From positions 930,001-994,000 of the forward strand of contig NZ_JAFBBY010000001.1 in NCBI RefSeq assembly GCF_016907515.1: a stretch of DNA of 64,000 nt, written 5' to 3'. This stretch comes from Nocardioides nitrophenolicus (GTDB taxonomy: Bacteria > Actinomycetota > Actinomycetes > Propionibacteriales > Nocardioidaceae). The notes beneath the pieces are model-generated. The model had not been told where the DNA came from, did not search any database, and saw nothing but the letters and a program-made list of their open reading frames with translations. The translations under genes were made by a program, and so were the position numbers. Below are positions 20,512 to 28,677 of this stretch, piece by piece. The first letter of the stretch is position 1, and each line of letters begins with the position of its first letter.

Positions 20512-20612
20512 GCTGTAACACGCTGTTCGCTGGTGTGGGGGACGCGGGCGTGCTGTAACACGCAGTTCGCTGGCGTGGGGGACGCGGGCGTGCTGTAACA
20601 CGCAGTTCGCTG
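20512..20612. repeat. 40-bp tandem direct repeat, 2.5 copies
   Basis: Between mec and the desaturase gene, a unit beginning GCTGTAACACGC and ending GTTCGCTG (21 bp) recurs at 20512, 20552 and 20592. The first two copies are each followed by a 19-bp spacer (g.gtgggggacgcgggcgt), so the period is exactly 40 bp. Units 2 and 3 are identical over 21 bp and unit 1 has one change. The third unit is also the left arm of the 114-bp element at 20592-20705. The 20449-20741 interval holds no gene. Confidence 0.9.
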
Positions 20613-20705
20613 CTCCTACCCACCCGTGCCGCATGTACCAGACCCCCACGGACGGGGTTTCGCGACGTCTCGGGTCCGGTAGGCCAGCGGACTGCGTGTT
20701 ACAGC
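20592..20705 (-). repeat. 114-bp inverted-repeat element, copy 1
   Basis: A 114-bp segment bounded by 21-bp inverted arms (20592-20612 and 20685-20705, one mismatch). Read on the minus strand it has the same layout and same exact length as the copy at 28564-28677: a 21-bp arm, 2 bp, a 24-bp core (20659-20682) that is identical in both copies, 46 bp of weaker similarity, and the opposite 21-bp arm. No coding capacity. The structure resembles a small non-autonomous (MITE-like) element or a structured intergenic repeat; target-site duplications were not clear. Confidence 0.8.
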
Positions 20706-20741
20706 GGCCGGAGCGCCACCCACCACGACTCCCGAGCAGGC

Positions 20742-21692
20742 TCACCCAGCAGACGTGACCGACTTGGCCCGGATCCGCTCGGCGGTGGGCCAGCGCACGT
20801 CGCGCACCCACCCGAGCTTCTCCAGCACCCAGATCACCCGCGCCGAGGTGTCGAGCTGGAACCTCTTCACGCCGTGCCGCGCCGACGTCGGGTCGGCGTG
20901 GTGGAGGTTGTGCCACGACTCGCCGCCCGACGGGATCGCGAGCCACCAGACGTTGCCGGAGAAGTCGCGGGAGGCGAAGGGGCGCTCGCCGAGGGTGTGG
21001 CAGATCGAGTTGATCGACCAGGTGACGTGGTGGATCAGCCCGATGCGTACGACGGTCCCCCAGAAGAACGCGGTCAGCGCGCCCTGCCAGGACCAGGTGA
21101 GCAGCCCTCCGAGGACGGGCGGGAGGAGGATCGAGGTGAGCACCCACAGCCAGAACAGCCGGGAGATCCGGATCAGGTCGCGGTCCTTGGCGAGGTCGGG
21201 CGCGTACTTGTCGATCGGGGTCTGCTCGGGGTCGAACAGCCAGCCGACGTGCGCCCACACGAAGCCCTTGGTGAGCCCGCGCAGGCTGTTGCCGTAGCGC
21301 CATGGCGAGTGGGGGTCGCCGTCCTTGTCGGAGTACTTGTGGTGCTTGCGGTGGTCGGCGACCCAGCGGATCACCGGGCCCTCGATCGCCATCGAGCCGA
21401 GGACCGCAAGGGTGACCTTCACGGCCCGGTTGGGCTTGAACGACTTGTGGGTGAAGAGCCGGTGGAAGCCGACGGTGATGCCGTGCAGCGTCAGGGCGTA
21501 CATCACGAAGGTGATCGCGACGTCGCTCCAGCCGAGCCAGCCGCCCCACGCGACGGGGATGGCGGCCAGGAAGGCGACGAAGGGTACGGCGATGAACAGG
21601 CCGAGGGCGAACCGTTCCCAGAAGCCCTGGGTGTCGCCACCCATGGTGGCCCTGGGGGTCGGCGGCTGCGGACGCTCGTCGATCGCGGTCAC
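20742..21692 (-). CDS. acyl-CoA / fatty-acid desaturase (delta-9 type)
   Basis: A 316-residue integral-membrane diiron desaturase that introduces a double bond into saturated acyl chains. The three His boxes are present: HRLFTH (first), HRKHH (second) and HNLHH (third), with membrane pairs at about residues 32-75 and 175-220. GWSDVAITFVMYALTLHGITVGFHR is typical of the stearoyl-CoA desaturase branch. In Mycobacterium the comparable enzyme draws electrons from a separate oxidoreductase, which is not encoded here. It lies between the cysteine operon and a two-component regulator gene, all on one strand, and follows that regulator by only 10 bp. Confidence 0.92.
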   Translation of the reverse strand: MTAIDERPQPPTPRATMGGDTQGFWERFALGLFIAVPFVAFLAAIPVAWGGWLGWSDVAITFVMYALTLHGITVGFHRLFTHKSFKPNRAVKVTLAVLGSMAIEGPVIRWVADHRKHHKYSDKDGDPHSPWRYGNSLRGLTKGFVWAHVGWLFDPEQTPIDKYAPDLAKDRDLIRISRLFWLWVLTSILLPPVLGGLLTWSWQGALTAFFWGTVVRIGLIHHVTWSINSICHTLGERPFASRDFSGNVWWLAIPSGGESWHNLHHADPTSARHGVKRFQLDTSARVIWVLEKLGWVRDVRWPTAERIRAKSVTSAG

Positions 21693-21702
21693 GCGGACCA
21701 GC

Positions 21703-22407
21703 CTAAGCGGTGACCCGGTACCTGCGCTCGGGCCGTCCGGTGCCGCCGTACCGGAGCCGGACCTCGGCGGCGCCGGTGTCGACGAAGTGCTCGAGATAGC
21801 GGCGAGCGGTCACCCGCGAGAGCCCCACCGCGTCGGCGGTCTCCGAGGCCGAGATCTCGCCGGCCGCGCGGGCCGCCTCGAGCACCAGGTCCGCCGTCTC
21901 GGCGCTGAGCCCCTTCGGCAGCCCCTGTGGTACGACGGCCGCCCGCCCCGCCCCGAACGCACGGTCGATCGTGGCCTGGTCGACCTCCTCCTCGCGCTCA
22001 CCACCGTCGGGCAGGGTGGCGAGCGTGGTCGCGACCCGGCGCAGGCGGTCGGCGAGGTCGGCGTACTCGAAGGGCTTGACCAGGTACTGGAGCGCACCGC
22101 CGTGGAGCGCGGCGCGCACGGCGGCGGCGCCGCGCTCGGCGGTGACCATCACGACCGCGACGTCGCGGCCCTGCTCGCGGGACTGGACGCGCAGCCGCTC
22201 GAGGACCTCGAGGCCGGAGAGGTCGGGCAGGTGGACGTCGAGGAGGACCAGGTCGGGCAGCAGGGCGGCGGCGAGCTCGAGCGCCTCGGCGCCGGTGCGG
22301 GCGGTGCCGGCCACCTCGAAGCCGTCGGTCTGCTCGACGAAGCGGCCGTGGATGCGCGCGACCATGAAGTCGTCGTCGACGACGAGGACCCGCAGCGTCC
22401 GGCTCAC
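21703..22407 (-). CDS. response regulator, CitB/DcuR type
   Basis: A 234-residue response regulator with an N-terminal receiver domain (LRVLVVDDDFMVARIH, phospho-Asp in DLVLLDVHLPDLSGLEVL at about residue 58, Lys in YLVKPFEY). The C-terminal winged or helix-turn-helix domain ends in GEISASETADAVGLSRVTARRYLEHFVDTG, as in DcuR/CitB regulators of dicarboxylate and citrate genes. The GTG start overlaps the kinase stop (GTGA). It very likely controls the divergent tctCBA operon; a 15-bp palindrome in that promoter region (24138-24152) is a possible binding site. Confidence 0.92.
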   Translation of the reverse strand: MSRTLRVLVVDDDFMVARIHGRFVEQTDGFEVAGTARTGAEALELAAALLPDLVLLDVHLPDLSGLEVLERLRVQSREQGRDVAVVMVTAERGAAAVRAALHGGALQYLVKPFEYADLADRLRRVATTLATLPDGGEREEEVDQATIDRAFGAGRAAVVPQGLPKGLSAETADLVLEAARAAGEISASETADAVGLSRVTARRYLEHFVDTGAAEVRLRYGGTGRPERRYRVTA

Positions 22408-24074
22408 GGTCGCCCATCCTGGCCGACGGCGCCGCTGATGGGGAGAACCACGCGGAACTCGGCGCCGCTCCCGTCGGCGAGGCCGGCGTCGTCGACGACC
22501 ACCTCGCCGCCGCGCTGGGCGCAGATCAGGCGCACGAGCGGCAGCCCGATCCCGCGCCCGCCCAGCACCTCCTCCTTCGTGGAGAAGCCGCGCACGAAGA
22601 TCGCGTCGCGCAGTTCGTCGGGGATGCCGGGGCCGTGGTCGCGCACCCGGAGGTGGACGGTCCGGTCGTCGGCGTGGATCCACACCTCGACCAGCGGGTC
22701 GGGGCGGCCGGCGCAGGCGTCGACCGCGTTGTCGACCAGGTTGCCGAGGACCGTCGTGAGGTCGGCGCTCTCGTCGGGGTCGAGCGCGGGCAGGCGGGAG
22801 CCGGGGTCCAGCTCGAGCGCCACGCCCCGCTCCTCGGCGACGGCGTGCTTGGCCACGACCAGGGCCGCGACGGCGGGGTCGGCGAGGCGCTCGGCGACCC
22901 GCTCCCCCACCTCGGCCCGGTGCCGGGTGAGGGTGCCGACCAGGGCCGCCACCTCGTCGTACTCCCCGAGCTGGACCAGCCCGGAGATGGTGTGCAGCCG
23001 GTTGTCGAACTCGTGGGTCTGCGCGCGCAGGGTGTCGGTGATGGAGAGGTTGGAGCTGAGCTGGCTCTGCAGCGAGACCAGCTCGGTGCGGTCGCGCAGG
23101 GTGGTGACGGTGCCGATGCCACGGCCGCCGGACGACGCGTCGCCGCGGTTGAAGACCACGACCCGGGAGCCGACGAGGGCCAGCGCGTCGCGGACCTCGG
23201 CGCCCTCGCCGGTCAGCAGCGCCACGACATGGGGGTCGAGGCCCAGCTCGTCGACCCGCCGCCCCACCGGGTCCGGACCGCGCTCCAGCCCGAGCGTGGC
23301 CCGGGCGGCGTCGTTCATCGCCGTCACCCGGCCGTCGGTGCCGACGCCGACCACGCCCTCCCGGATGGCGTGCAGCAGCGCCTCGCGGTGGTCGGCGAGG
23401 TGGGCCAGCTCGGTCGTGCCGAGGCCGCGCGTCGACCGGCGGACGACGCGCGCCACGAGCCAGGTGCCGACCAGGCCGAGCAGCGCGCCCAGGCCCAGGA
23501 AGAGACCCAGCTCGGGCACCGCCTCGGCGAGCTGGTCGCCCAGTGACGGGTACGCCGCCTCCGCCACGATCGCGCCGACCGCGCCGTTGTCACCGGGCAG
23601 GTCCGCGATGACCGGCGCGTACGCCGCCACCCGGCGCTCGCCCCCGGCCTCCACGTCGACCGTCCCGCCCCGCCCGGCCGCCACGTCGATCCCGGCCCGC
23701 TTCCCCACCCGGCTGGCGTCGGTGGCGGCGAGGACGATGCCGTCGGGCCCCACCACGAGCACGTCGGTCGCGCCGGAGAGGCGCACCCCGCGCTCGGCGT
23801 ACGACGTGAGGTCGGCCGTCACCTGCCACAGCTCGGTCCCGTCCCGCACCCCCTCGAGCGCGGTCCGGACGAAGTCCTGCACGGCGACGTACTCCGCCAC
23901 CGACCGCATCTGCGCGCCCCGCTCGTCGGCGAAGTCGGCGTTGGACTGGCGGATGCTGAGCACCCCGACGGCCACCAGCAGCACGACGATGACCAGGAGC
24001 TGGAGGAGCAGCACCTTCGCGGCGAGGGTCAGCTCCCCGCGACGCCACCGCAGCGGGTTCACCGGCGTGACCAC
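22404..24074 (-). CDS. sensor histidine kinase, CitA/DcuS type
   Basis: A 556-residue membrane kinase. After a first membrane helix (about residues 17-42) comes an extracytoplasmic PAS-like sensor domain (QSNADFADERGAQMRSVAEYVA ... GDQLAEAVPELG) and a second helix (about 180-205). A cytoplasmic PAS (LLHAIREGVVGVGTDGRVTAMNDAA) leads to the SPOB-type His region THEFDNRLHTISGLVQL and an HATPase domain (NLVDNAVDAC, DHGPGIP, GRGIGLPLVR). The GTG at 24074 lies 11 nt after AAAGGAGG; a closer GTG at 24083 is only 2 nt away and is less likely. It pairs with the overlapping CitB-type regulator; the ligand is probably a di- or tricarboxylate. Confidence 0.9.
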   Translation of the reverse strand: MVTPVNPLRWRRGELTLAAKVLLLQLLVIVVLLVAVGVLSIRQSNADFADERGAQMRSVAEYVAVQDFVRTALEGVRDGTELWQVTADLTSYAERGVRLSGATDVLVVGPDGIVLAATDASRVGKRAGIDVAAGRGGTVDVEAGGERRVAAYAPVIADLPGDNGAVGAIVAEAAYPSLGDQLAEAVPELGLFLGLGALLGLVGTWLVARVVRRSTRGLGTTELAHLADHREALLHAIREGVVGVGTDGRVTAMNDAARATLGLERGPDPVGRRVDELGLDPHVVALLTGEGAEVRDALALVGSRVVVFNRGDASSGGRGIGTVTTLRDRTELVSLQSQLSSNLSITDTLRAQTHEFDNRLHTISGLVQLGEYDEVAALVGTLTRHRAEVGERVAERLADPAVAALVVAKHAVAEERGVALELDPGSRLPALDPDESADLTTVLGNLVDNAVDACAGRPDPLVEVWIHADDRTVHLRVRDHGPGIPDELRDAIFVRGFSTKEEVLGGRGIGLPLVRLICAQRGGEVVVDDAGLADGSGAEFRVVLPISGAVGQDGRP

Positions 24075-24137
24075 AACGACCACAACCTCCTTTGCGTCCG
24101 CAAGCGTGACGGCCGCCACAGGCCACGGACATGCTGA

Positions 24138-24152
24138 CACGGATCGTCCGTG
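24138..24152. promoter_or_regulatory. 15-bp palindrome in the tctC/histidine-kinase divergent region
   Basis: CACGGA-TCG-TCCGTG is a perfect palindrome placed 33 bp upstream of the tctC ATG and 64 bp upstream of the histidine-kinase start. A CitB/DcuR-type response regulator encoded in the next operon is the natural candidate binder. The role is inferred from position and symmetry only. Confidence 0.45.
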
Positions 24153-24184
24153 ACGACGGTCACCACCCAACCCGGAGGTACCCC

Positions 24185-25171
24185 ATGCATCGCCCAGGAC
24201 GTGCCCTGACGGCACTCCTCGTCGCGCTGGCGCTCGCGGTCGTCGCGAGCGGCTGCGGCGTCACCCGCGGCTCGGACGACCCGAGCAACCGGCGGCTGCG
24301 GATGATGATCCCCAACAGCGTCGGCGGCGGCTACGACCTCACCGGCCGCGCCGCGGCGCGCGCCATGGAGGACAACGACCTCACCGGCCGCTTCGAGATC
24401 ACCAACGTGCAGGGCGCCAGCGGCACCGTCGCGATGCAGCGGCTGGTCAACGAGAAGGGCGCCGACGACCTCATGATGATCATGGGACTCGGCGTGGTCG
24501 GCGCGGTCTACACCAACAAGTCCAGCGCCACCCCGCTGAAGATGACGCCGATCGCGCGCCTGGTCGAGGAGCAGGAGGGCATCCTGGTGCCCGCCGACTC
24601 GCCGTTCGAGACGGTCGACGACCTGGTCGCCGCCTGGAAGAAGGACCCGGGCGGCCTCACCGTGGGCGGCGGCTCCAGCAACGGCGGGCCCGACCACCTG
24701 TTCCCGATGCAGCTGGCCGCGGCGATCGGGGTCGACCCGAAGCAGGTCAACTACATCCCCTACGACGGCGGCGGCCCCCTCACGACCGCGCTCCTCGGCG
24801 CCAAGATCGACGTCGGCATGTCCGGCCTGGGCGAGTTCGAGGGCCAGATCGCCGACGGCAAGCTGCGCGTGCTCGCCGTCTCCGGCGCCGAGCGCCTCGA
24901 CGGGATCGACGCGCCGACCCTCACCGAGGTGGGCGTCGACCTGGTCTTCACCAACTGGCGCGGGGTGCTCGCGCCGCCCGGCATCTCCGCGGAGCAGCGG
25001 GCCTACCTGACCGAGCTGCTGACCGAGATGCACGACACCGCCGAGTGGAAGGACGCGCTCGAGGCCAACGGCTGGACCGACAACTTCGCCACCGGCAAGG
25101 AGTTCGAGGACTTCCTCGCCGAGCAGGACGACCGCGTCGCCGACACCCTGAAGGAGCTGGGACTCGCATGA
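24185..25171 (+). CDS. tctC: tripartite tricarboxylate transporter substrate-binding protein TctC (Bug family)
   Basis: A 328-residue lipoprotein that captures substrate outside the membrane. The signal sequence ends in a lipobox (VVASGCG, Cys near residue 23). The mature protein shows Bug-family features: [19 protein letters not shown] near the start, [21 protein letters not shown] and the late APPGIS-type segment. The ATG has GGAGG 7 nt upstream. It is the first gene of tctC-tctB-tctA-uspA, each overlapping the next by 1-4 bp, divergent from a CitA/CitB-type two-component system. The substrate is probably citrate or another carboxylate. Confidence 0.93.
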
Positions 25172-25677
25172 GCGCGACCACCAACCAACCCACCCGCCTG
25201 GTCGACAAGGCACAGTACGGCCTGGCCGCCTTCCTCGTCCTTGCCGGCGGCTACGTCCTCCTCGACGCCGCCGGCCTCGAGAACGGCTTCGCCGACCAGC
25301 CGGTCCAGCCCCACACGCTGCCGTACGTCGTCGGCGCGGGCCTGGTGCTCCTCGGCATCCTGCTCGCCGTCGCCACCGCGCGCGGGGACCGGCCCGAGGC
25401 GGAGGAGGGCGAGGACGTCGACCTGACCCAGGGCACCGACGTCCGCACGGTCGGGCTGCTCGCCCTCGTCCTCGTCGCCAACATCGCCCTGATCGACCTG
25501 CTCGGCTGGGCGATCACCGGGGCGCTGCTGTTCGCCGGCTCGGCCGTCGTCCTCGGCAGCCGCAGCTGGGTGCGCGACCTGGCCGTCGGCGTCGCCCTGT
25601 CGGTCGGCAGCTGGTACGGCTTCTACGTCGGCCTCGGGATCCCGATCCCCGCCGGCATCCTGGACGGAGTGCTCTGA
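25168..25677 (+). CDS. tctB: tripartite tricarboxylate transporter small membrane subunit TctB
   Basis: A 169-residue membrane protein with four predicted helices (about residues 16-35, 50-67, 95-120 and 135-160), the usual layout of TctB. The acidic loop ([16 protein letters not shown]) lies between helices 2 and 3. The ATG overlaps the tctC stop (ATGA) and the stop overlaps the tctA start (TGATG). It works as the small subunit partnering TctA; a separate function is not known. Confidence 0.9.
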
Positions 25678-27188
25678 TGGACCTGCTGCTCGACGGCTTC
25701 CAGACCGCCCTCACCCCGGAGAACCTGCTCTTCGCCGCCCTCGGCGTGCTGCTCGGCACCGCCGTCGGCGTACTGCCCGGCATCGGCCCCGCGATGACCC
25801 TGGCCCTGCTGTTGCCGGTGACCTACAGCGTCGGCGCGGACAGCGCGATCATCATGTTCGCCGGCATCTACTACGGCGGCATGTACGGCGGCTCGACCAC
25901 CTCGATCCTGCTCAACACCCCCGGCGAGTCCTCGTCGGTGATCACCGCCATCGAGGGCAACAAGATGGCCAAGGCGGGACGAGCGGCCCAGGCCCTCGCC
26001 ACCGCCGCGATCGGCTCGTTCGTGGCGGGCAGCATCGCGACCGTGCTGCTGTGGGTCGTCACCCCGCAGGTCGCCGACATCGTCGTCACGCTCGGCTCGC
26101 CGTCGTACTTCGCGCTGATGGTGCTGGCGCTGTTCGCCGTCACCGCGGTGCTCGGCTCGTCCAAGCTGCGCGGCTTCATCGCGCTCTTCCTCGGCCTGGC
26201 GATCGGCCTGGTCGGCACCAGCACCGGCCAGGCCCGGCTGACCTTCGGCGAGCCGCTGCTCGCCGACGGCATCGACATCGTCGTGGTCGCGGTCGCGCTG
26301 TTCGCGGTCGGCGAGGCACTGTGGGTCGCCGCGCACCTGCGCCGCAAGCCGCTGGAGATCATCCCCGTCGGCCAGCCCTGGATGAGCCGCGAGGACTGGG
26401 GCCGCTCCTGGAAGCCCTGGCTGCGCGGCACGGCGTTCGGCTTCCCGTTCGGGGCGCTGCCGGCCGGTGGTGCGGAGCTGCCGACCTTCTTGTCGTACGC
26501 GACCGAGAAGCGGCTCTCCAAGCACCCCGAGGAGTTCGGCAAGGGCGCCATCGAGGGCGTCGCCGGCCCGGAGGCCGCCAACAACGCCTCGGCCGCCGGC
26601 ACCCTGGTGCCGCTGCTCGCGCTGGGCCTGCCGACCACGGCGACCGCCGCGATCATGCTGGTCGCGCTGCAGGGCTACGGCTTCCAGACCGGCCCGACCC
26701 TGATGGACGACCACCCCGACCTGGTGTGGGGGCTGCTCGCCAGCCTGTTCGTGGCCAATGCACTGCTGCTCGTGCTGAACCTGCCGATGGCGCCGCTGTG
26801 GGCCAAGCTGCTGCGGATCCCCCGCCCCTACCTGTACGCCGGCATCCTGTTCTTCGCCTCGCTCGGCGCCTACAGCGTCAACTTCCAGGCCTTCGACCTG
26901 GCGCTGCTGCTGGTGATCGGCGCACTCGGCTTCTTCATGCGCCGCTTCGGCGTCCCGGTGCTGCCGCTGATCATCGGCGTGATCCTCGGTCCCAAGCTCG
27001 AGGAGCAGCTCACCACCGCGCTGAAGATCTCCCAGGGCGACGTCAGCACGCTGTGGAGCGAGCCGGTCGCCGTCGTGGTCTACGTCGTGATCGCGCTGCT
27101 GCTCGTCGCGATGGCGTTCGCCGGCCTGCGCCGCCGGCCCGCCGAGCCCACCCACCCGCAGGACGAGAAGGAGCTGATCGAGCGATGA
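25677..27188 (+). CDS. tctA: tripartite tricarboxylate transporter permease TctA
   Basis: A 503-residue permease with about 11-12 membrane segments. Family motifs are plain: [20 protein letters not shown] near residues 28-50, [20 protein letters not shown], and the second repeat with [17 protein letters not shown] and [32 protein letters not shown]. The C-terminus ends in a basic cytoplasmic tail. Its start shares bases with the tctB stop and its stop overlaps the uspA start by 4 bp. Carboxylate uptake is secondary (ion-gradient driven) in characterised systems. Confidence 0.95.
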
Positions 27189-27589
27189 ACCAGCCCGCGA
27201 GCATCGTGGTCGCCTACAGCGCGGACCGGTACGGCGAGGCCGCCCTCGAGCACGCCGCCGACCTGGCCCGCAAGGACCGCGCCCGGCTGGTCGTCGTCAA
27301 CGCGACGCTCGGCAGCAGCCTGGTCGACGCCCGGTTCGCGCACGACGCGGACATCACCGCGCTGCGCGACCGGCTGGCCGCCGAGGGACTCGACGTCGTC
27401 GTACGTCACGACGTGGTCGAGGACGTCGCCGACGCCGTGGTCGCCACGGCCGACGAGGAGCAGGCGGCGTTGATCGTGGTCGGCATCCGGCACCGCACGC
27501 CGGTCGGCAAGCTGCTGCTGGGCAGCGTGGCCCAGCGGATCATCCTCGAGGCGCACTGCCCGGTGCTGGCGGTCAAGCCGGCGGGCTGA
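27185..27589 (+). CDS. universal stress protein (UspA family)
   Basis: A 134-residue single-domain UspA protein: [23 protein letters not shown] at the N-terminus and the ATP-binding signature [31 protein letters not shown] at the C-terminus (Gly-x2-Gly-x9-Gly-Ser pattern), which suggests the ATP-binding class. It is the last gene of the tctCBA operon (4-bp overlap). UspA proteins often accompany transporters and may modulate their activity; here that is inference. The gene ends 2 bp from the convergent DUF2017 gene. Confidence 0.9.
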
Positions 27590-27591
27590 GC

Positions 27592-28176
27592 TCAGCGCAC
27601 CGCGGCGACCAGCGTCTCCTGCAGGAAGCCCAGCCACTCGTAGATGTGGTGCGCCTGGGCACGCGGGTCGTCGTCGGGCAGCGAGTACCAGTAGTCCTCG
27701 TCGCCCTCCTCGACCTCGAGACGGGTGCCGAGGGCCAGCCGCAGGTCGGTGAACGAGCGCATCCAGACCAGCGCGGTCTCCGGATCGAGCTCGACGTCGA
27801 TGGTGATCTCCTCGTCGGTGGGCTCGGCCGGCAGCCCGGCCTCCTCCAGTACGTCGATCACGCTCGCCGCGGCCCGGGCCTTCCCGTCGCGCAGGGTGCC
27901 CTCGGTGTAGCGCCGGAACTCGCCCGCCGCCTCCTCGTCACCCTGGTAGGCGTTGGGGAAGAGCCGGCGCAGCACCGGGTCCTCGGGCTCGGTGGTCGGA
28001 CCGGAGAAGTCGAGCAGCGCCTCGAGCGGGTCGCGCTCGGTCGCGGCGACGGCCGACTCGTTGTGGAGCAGCTCGATCAGCTGGGCGGCCAGCGAGCGCA
28101 GCAGGTCGGCCTCGAACGCCGAGAAGGTCGCGATGGCGCGCTTGCTCCGGCGGTGCCGCACGAATCCAGAGGTCAC
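27592..28176 (-). CDS. DUF2017 family protein
   Basis: A 194-residue protein of the DUF2017 family, found almost only in Actinobacteria and nearly always next to clpS. Conserved parts visible are FSAFEADLLRSLAAQLIELL, PVLRRLFPNAYQGDEEAAGEFRR, WMRSFTDLRLALGTRL and the C-terminal YEWLGFLQETLV. It is mostly helical and acidic and lacks membrane segments. The GTG shares one base with the clpS stop (TAGTG), so translation is coupled. The link to ClpS suggests a role in regulated proteolysis, not demonstrated. Confidence 0.88.
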   Translation of the reverse strand: MTSGFVRHRRSKRAIATFSAFEADLLRSLAAQLIELLHNESAVAATERDPLEALLDFSGPTTEPEDPVLRRLFPNAYQGDEEAAGEFRRYTEGTLRDGKARAAASVIDVLEEAGLPAEPTDEEITIDVELDPETALVWMRSFTDLRLALGTRLEVEEGDEDYWYSLPDDDPRAQAHHIYEWLGFLQETLVAAVR

Positions 28177-28484
28177 TACTCGGCCTTCGACAGGGTCGCC
28201 CACAGGCCGTACTCGTGCATCGCCTGCACGTCGCGCTCCATCTCCTCGCGACTGCCACTGCTGACCACGGACCTGCCGTCCTCGTGGACCTCCATCATCA
28301 GCTTCTCGGCCTTCTTCTTGCCGTAGCCGAAGTGCTTCTGGAAGACGAAGGTGACATAGGACATCAGGTTCACGGGGTCGTTCCACACCACCGTCACCCA
28401 GGGGGTGTCGGCGAGGGTGATGTCATCCGGGGCGAGGTCCTGCTGGACTCCCGGATCGACCTTCTCCGGACTCGCGGTCGTCAC
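28176..28484 (-). CDS. clpS: ATP-dependent Clp protease adaptor ClpS
   Basis: A 102-residue adaptor that delivers N-degron substrates to ClpCP/ClpAP. The N-terminal tail (about 25 residues) is followed by the core: [21 protein letters not shown] with the Asn-Asp of the substrate pocket, [23 protein letters not shown] and the His of MMEVHEDG. The GTG start is taken at 28484. It is coupled to the DUF2017 gene. In M. tuberculosis the comparable locus is followed within a few genes by mec-cysO-cysM; here the tct and desaturase modules intervene. Confidence 0.95.
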
Positions 28485-28563
28485 GGCCCCATGGTGTCAC
28501 AGGGGCCTGGCTGGCTCGCACGGGCCGGCGCTGGGGTGGGGGGCGGAGCGGGGCGGCCCGGCC

Positions 28564-28677
28564 GCTGTAACACGCAGTTCGCTGCTCTACCGGACCCGAG
28601 ACGTCGCGAAGCCGGGTCCGTACGGGTCCCGAACAGCAGACAGGAGTCGGACAGACCGGCGAACTACGTGTTACAGC
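28564..28677 (+). repeat. 114-bp inverted-repeat element, copy 2
   Basis: A 114-bp intergenic element upstream of clpS, in the opposite orientation to the copy at 20592-20705 and of identical length. The left arm 28564-28584 is identical to the tandem units there, and the right arm 28657-28677 is its inverse with two mismatches. The 24-bp core 28587-28610 (CTACCGGACCCGAGACGTCG then CGAA) is identical between copies. The 10-bp sequence TTACAGCGGC is duplicated in tandem at the right edge (28671-28690), extending past the arm. The rest of 28485-28759 holds no gene. Confidence 0.8.

Follow-up and report, generated by a model that had tools for sequence, protein, structure and literature searches.

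Dispersed palindromic repeats served by a dedicated, host-retained enzyme have been described for enzymes of the HUH type (RAYT/TnpA_REP). In the REPIN-RAYT system, two-unit palindromic repeats lie next to cognate genes, each gene has its own repeat group, and tandem arrays occur, as described in PMC3116915; the layout of the system is also given in PMC8266576, and PMC8450116 reports insertion sequence (IS) elements inserted in REPIN-type repeats. Here we analyze a 64-kb stretch of Nocardioides nitrophenolicus DNA (hereafter the window; bases 930001-994000 of the single-contig genome of 5,815,017 bp) that carries two copies of a 114-bp palindromic element, and a gene outside the window that is flanked by such elements and whose product joins an AbiEi-like region to a Vsr/EDxHD-type nuclease fold. 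We propose, with a probability of about 0.7, that the 114-bp elements and this gene form a two-part system, in which the elements are the dispersed component that is not autonomous and the gene is their partner.

The system resembles REPIN-RAYT in several respects: many short palindromic repeats are built of two inverted units, dedicated genes stand beside cognate repeats (here the gene is flanked by cognate elements), several repeat groups are each tied to their own gene, tandem higher-order arrays are formed and IS elements are inserted into the repeats. The differences are that the enzyme has an AbiEi plus Vsr/EDxHD-type fold and not an HUH fold, and that the elements are longer, fall into fixed size classes and give no overall compensatory pairing signal. 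A RAYT partner (a Y1/HUH tyrosine transposase, PF01797) was searched for and rejected, with 0 matches in the N. nitrophenolicus genome and matches in 5 of 14 control genomes. Since the defining enzyme is absent from the genome and the fold of the partner is unrelated, the system works like REPIN-RAYT without being a member of it, and looks independently evolved.

Two further systems resemble the protein. Its catalytic domain shares the fold of Vsr and of EDxHD homing endonucleases such as I-Bth0305I, which according to PMC3943268 forms a dimer on a target nearly 60 bp long; in contrast to those endonucleases, it has an AbiEi-like DNA-binding part and is associated with dispersed repeats instead of one homing site, and neither an intron nor an intein is seen. 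Residues 1-198 have the architecture of AbiEi from the AbiE type IV toxin-antitoxin system, and AbiEi binds paired 23-bp inverted repeats as described in PMC7319586. Unlike AbiE, the present system adds a nuclease-like domain, has no toxin gene beside the two N. nitrophenolicus genes, and carries repeats on both gene flanks and genome-wide. Our literature searches of open-licence papers found, by title and abstract, no description of these repeats or of the repeat-gene pairing.

A family of palindromic elements

Copy 1 lies at 20592..20705 on the minus strand and copy 2 at 28564..28677 on the plus strand, both belonging to subfamily A. The 21-bp arms are at 20592..20612 (+) and 20685..20705 (-) in copy 1, and at 28564..28584 (+) and 28657..28677 (-) in copy 2; a 24-bp stretch is identical between them (20659..20682, minus strand, and 28587..28610, plus strand, respectively). 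The earlier note on this DNA had described exactly this pair of oppositely oriented copies with inverted arms and an exact 24-bp stretch, and its description is confirmed. Overall, 90/114 positions are identical. The note did not mention that two tandem 40-bp arm units directly precede copy 1, at 20512..20551 (+; the 21-bp arm plus 19 bp) and 20552..20591 (+; 95% identical to the first). Some other copies in this genome likewise have the arm repeated every 40 bp on one side or on both, and such stacking is seen in relatives. The window holds 6 arm matches, compared with 0.05 expected from shuffles, and neither copy matches an RNA family in Rfam at the gathering threshold.

The genome has 79 complete family members by a strict two-ended pattern and 0 by the reversed control pattern. 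The two copies in the window are 2 of these 79, and the notion that they border a unit does not hold up. The 21-bp arm alone has 119 matches with at most 3 mismatches. In a BLAST search with copy 1 (40 of 71 candidates scored), there are at least 57 places, namely the query plus 56 more at 72-84%, of which two are partial. Among 57 distinct copies in the fetched loci, 50 are 114 bp long, with a mean likeness of ~75%, and 7 are 113 bp long, with a core that differs from that of the 114-bp copies. The elements end in TGT...ACA, with a conserved GC pair beside the ends on both sides.

Placement was assessed for the 30 best-matching copies in this genome, using open reading frames (ORFs) called by codon-position GC and not by annotation. 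As with REPINs, the two-ended inverted unit is mostly extragenic: 27 of the 30 lie between genes (11 convergent, 16 co-directional and 0 divergent pairs), two are in a predicted ORF and one is unresolved.

The partner gene and its association with the elements

In relatives, arms spaced ~1.4-1.6 kb apart enclose one gene type. When 12 genomes were searched with this gene, all 13 hits below 1e-80 had arms (at most 2 mismatches) in both flanks. N. nitrophenolicus itself has two close copies, namely gene a (4033099-4034148), flanked by 113-bp elements, and gene b (4131648-4132709, minus strand), which has 114-bp elements on both flanks, as well as two much more distant matches. The encoded protein begins with a winged helix-turn-helix followed by an AbiEi-type domain (residues 1-198), and its remaining fold matches I-Bth0305I and Vsr; acidic residues of catalytic type are conserved, as is a lysine. 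At the sequence level, the protein profile matched no solved structure.

To assess the flanks independently of the arm motif, we scored matching sequence de novo in both 400-bp flanks (score of at least 18). Both flanks match in 26 of the 30 top gene loci in the genus (failing: L252, L263, L268 and L275) vs. 0 of 29 clpS control loci, where the maximum score is 16. By explicit extraction, 27 of 29 chosen loci have an element on each side, the left one being absent in genome G128 and the right one in G069. Their TGT...ACA lengths are 70/71, 90, 109 or 110 bp, and left and right lengths agree in 26 of 27 loci (exception: G205). By our own reading, the ~20-bp steps between length classes correspond to about two helical turns.

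Gene and elements also co-occur. Among 215 genomes of the genus, a close gene copy is present in 22 of 26 arm-positive vs. 28 of 189 arm-negative genomes. Two-ended patterns covering both size ranges identify 87 genomes with elements: 48 of the 53 that carry the gene at E<1e-79 vs. 39 of the 162 others, an odds ratio of 30 that drops to 4-9 at looser gene cut-offs. It should be noted that the p-values for co-occurrence are inflated by shared ancestry. Ten genomes have elements (up to 19 copies, in G045) without the gene at 1e-30, and five (G048, G134, G173, G182 and G208) have a close gene without an element detectable by pattern.

The sequences of gene and elements are matched as well. Protein identity correlates with the identity of the flanking elements (Mantel r=0.754; 22 of 29 genes; 0/2000 permutations). 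In N. nitrophenolicus and in G093, which have two genes each, the elements flanking each gene are nearest to those of the same gene type in other species. At the b locus of G049 the protein is a-type; the elements there likewise come closest to a-type ones, if only slightly so (0.67 at best). Within N. nitrophenolicus, the scattered A copies are nearer to the gene-b flanks in all 48 cases, and the B copies to the gene-a flanks in 4 of 5; the two close gene copies of this genome thus pair off with its two element subfamilies.

A wider contig scan with two short peptide patterns, which detects close relatives, found 54 loci, all from Nocardioides, Pimelobacter or other Nocardioidaceae except one each from Jiangella and Aldersonia. 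A matching repeat is present in both flanks of 41 of the 49 scorable loci, or 40 after L322 is dropped as a masked-N artefact; many of these loci are the same genes as in the 30-locus test. The Aldersonia locus has no matching flank repeat. That the elements and the gene belong together is well supported by the flanking positions, the co-occurrence, the matches in size and in sequence type, and the presence of two matched pairs in one genome.

Some of the more distant loci carry other repeats. The Jiangella rhizosphaerae locus (L328) encodes a homologue of 30% identity with a repeat in both flanks whose inverted ends, CTTGGCACGC, are unrelated to those above, suggesting that the gene-repeat pairing is older than the TGTAAC ends and hinting that it extends beyond Nocardioides. 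Paralogues at ~42% identity in G129, G199 and G154 (L227, L231 and L232) have a further repeat in their flanks, GCTGTAACCCTTAGTTACAAGCG or a close variant of it. G041 has a second element family of 80 bp with ends TGTAACTCGGTGT; this end also adjoins a diverged G041 paralogue (L233, L322), the other flank of which is masked.

Inheritance of the gene, regulation and defence

Comparing the outer flanks of 21 gene loci, we found 12 loci that share those of gene b and 6 that share those of gene a, and dN/dS is 0.15-0.22 (8 pairs). The partner gene is vertically inherited, not hopping. Viral contigs contain no relative of it; they give 26 element-pattern hits of many lengths, which were taken as chance.

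That the gene keeps one locus in many species would also be expected of a regulator or nucleoid-type binder of scattered operators whose nuclease-like domain does not move them, with the repeats spreading by some other route, and AbiEi antitoxins are described as autoregulating through inverted repeats in their own promoter (PMC7319586). However, the elements stand at both ends of the gene and not at the promoter alone, and the catalytic-type acidic residues and lysine are conserved. Furthermore, the fact that none of the 30 copies is placed between divergent genes argues against promoter control, and binding alone leaves both the copy number and the empty sites unexplained. We therefore consider a purely regulatory protein unlikely.

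The same protein family invites a reading in terms of self-marking or defence, in which a nuclease acting against element-free DNA is kept off the chromosome by the elements or else recruited by them. AbiE-type proteins are listed as defence genes, and 45/45 homologues match the PADLOC AbiEi models. Nevertheless, there is no AbiEii-type toxin gene beside gene a or gene b, the two loci checked, and the copy number ranges from 0 to 79 across genomes with a close gene copy, so that we judge such a role to be very unlikely.

Insertion sites and the mobile-element alternatives

The sites of the two copies were compared with those of relatives. At site 2, 22 of 29 loci align on both flanks; in 20 of these 22 the gap measures -1 to 41 bp vs. 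~255 bp in N. nitrophenolicus, the gain in this genome thus exceeding the length of the element. Of the other two, one has a 1265-bp stretch, and G169 (L166) holds at this intergenic site by clpS a different palindrome of 170 bp with ends AGGGCGTGGCTCTCCCCTCAGCG. At site 1, 13 of 15 fetched relatives align: elements are present in G093 and G084, a single 40-bp unit in G041, and nothing in ten. The sites are therefore not conserved across all relatives, site 2 being without the element in the 21 relatives with an inspected junction and site 1 empty in ten of 13.

The earlier note had suggested that the two copies could allow inversion of the 8-kb segment between them. Their opposite orientation would suit such recombination sites, but they agree at 90/114 positions with a 24-bp exact run. 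The flanks of site 1 are collinear in 13/13 aligned relatives, at positions predicted by clpS coordinates, so no inversion is seen at this end, and site 2 lacks the element in relatives. This suggestion is not borne out, and we give it practically no chance.

The note had also proposed MITE-like copies (miniature inverted-repeat transposable elements) of a transposon outside the window. This stands insofar as the elements are non-coding, intergenic and multi-copy with terminal inverted repeats and TGT...ACA ends, and their partner gene does lie outside the window; it is not supported in that the partner is no DDE transposase or other known transposase type and no clear target-site duplication is found. 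In 148 isolated copies from several species, examined for duplications of 3-10 bp at five offsets, the largest excess of flank matches is 13 observed vs. 8.2 expected from shuffled pairings, at 4 bp. Given the age of the copies, target duplications could have decayed, which raises the chance of this alternative a little at the expense of our proposal. On the other side, no intact DDE element bounded by these ends was seen in relatives, the elements are consistently associated with the AbiEi-nuclease gene, and the sole IS between these ends belongs to the IS256 family and is inserted into 114-bp elements. Ordinary MITEs of a DDE transposon, lost or unrecognised, thus retain only a slight chance.

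The IS256-family element is 1394 bp long and has four full copies in the genome, outside the window (L100-L103, that is L100, L101, L102 and L103). Three are inside 114-bp elements, with exact 8-bp duplications in two, and the fourth sits between fragments of another copy of that IS. Because the IS is inserted inside them with its own 8-bp duplications, the 114-bp elements are its targets, and the targeting is strong. Two 1516-bp stretches that had been considered as an autonomous transposon are IS256-family copies inside 114-bp elements, and a non-autonomous IS256-family element is not supported, as the IS ends differ and the IS sits within the elements.

A proposed mechanism

For the two-part system, we envisage the following steps. 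By analogy with AbiEi and I-Bth0305I, the fusion protein is expected to bind paired arms and cut: its winged-helix part would bind the inverted 21-bp arms as a pair, and its nuclease-like part may nick or cut at the elements. Repair would then carry element sequence to new sites between genes, and from one existing copy to another, in a homing-like manner, a form of spread that would leave no target duplication and could yield the 40-bp tandem additions.

Exchange between copies was examined at 6 sites common with G093; the remaining G093 loci had no match among the fetched loci of N. nitrophenolicus. Element identity at these sites is 0.63-0.81, and the aligned flanks are 79-94% identical. 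For comparison, identity is 0.76 within each genome and 0.71 for random cross-genome copies; at 4 of the 6 sites the elements are no more alike than such random pairs.

The arms are complementary, yet no compensatory covariation for hairpin pairing is found overall. In subfamily A of N. nitrophenolicus, pairs fall short of expectation at several stem positions (0/2000 permutations; 0.027 after copies at least 90% alike are removed), with stem positions 12/103 and 13/102 leaning opposite to the deficit. Elsewhere, pairs are fewer than expected in G044 (P=0.007) and slightly in excess in G041 (P=0.07), and four other small sets show nothing.

The full scenario, in which an AbiEi-fused Vsr/EDxHD homing-type endonuclease gave rise, independently of HUH enzymes, to genome-wide palindromic repeats, binding and cutting them and spreading them through repair, is one on which we are evenly divided. 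A second, unrelated enzyme with such a genomic signature would mean that this lifestyle evolved more than once. A family annotated as type IV antitoxins would be re-labelled as repeat-associated nucleases, and many actinobacterial "AbiEi antitoxins" would be repeat-mobilising enzymes. The two cognate pairs in one genome are suited to binding and cutting tests.

Neighbouring genes and a copy at a gene start

The neighbours of gene b encode a Peptidase_M15_4 protein and a UvrD helicase, and those of gene a encode a trypsin-PDZ protease and an AMP-binding enzyme. In another genome, visual inspection places a 75-bp copy (L139; G001:512700-512774) right where an oxidoreductase-like frame begins; the copy would add 25 in-frame codons to that frame.
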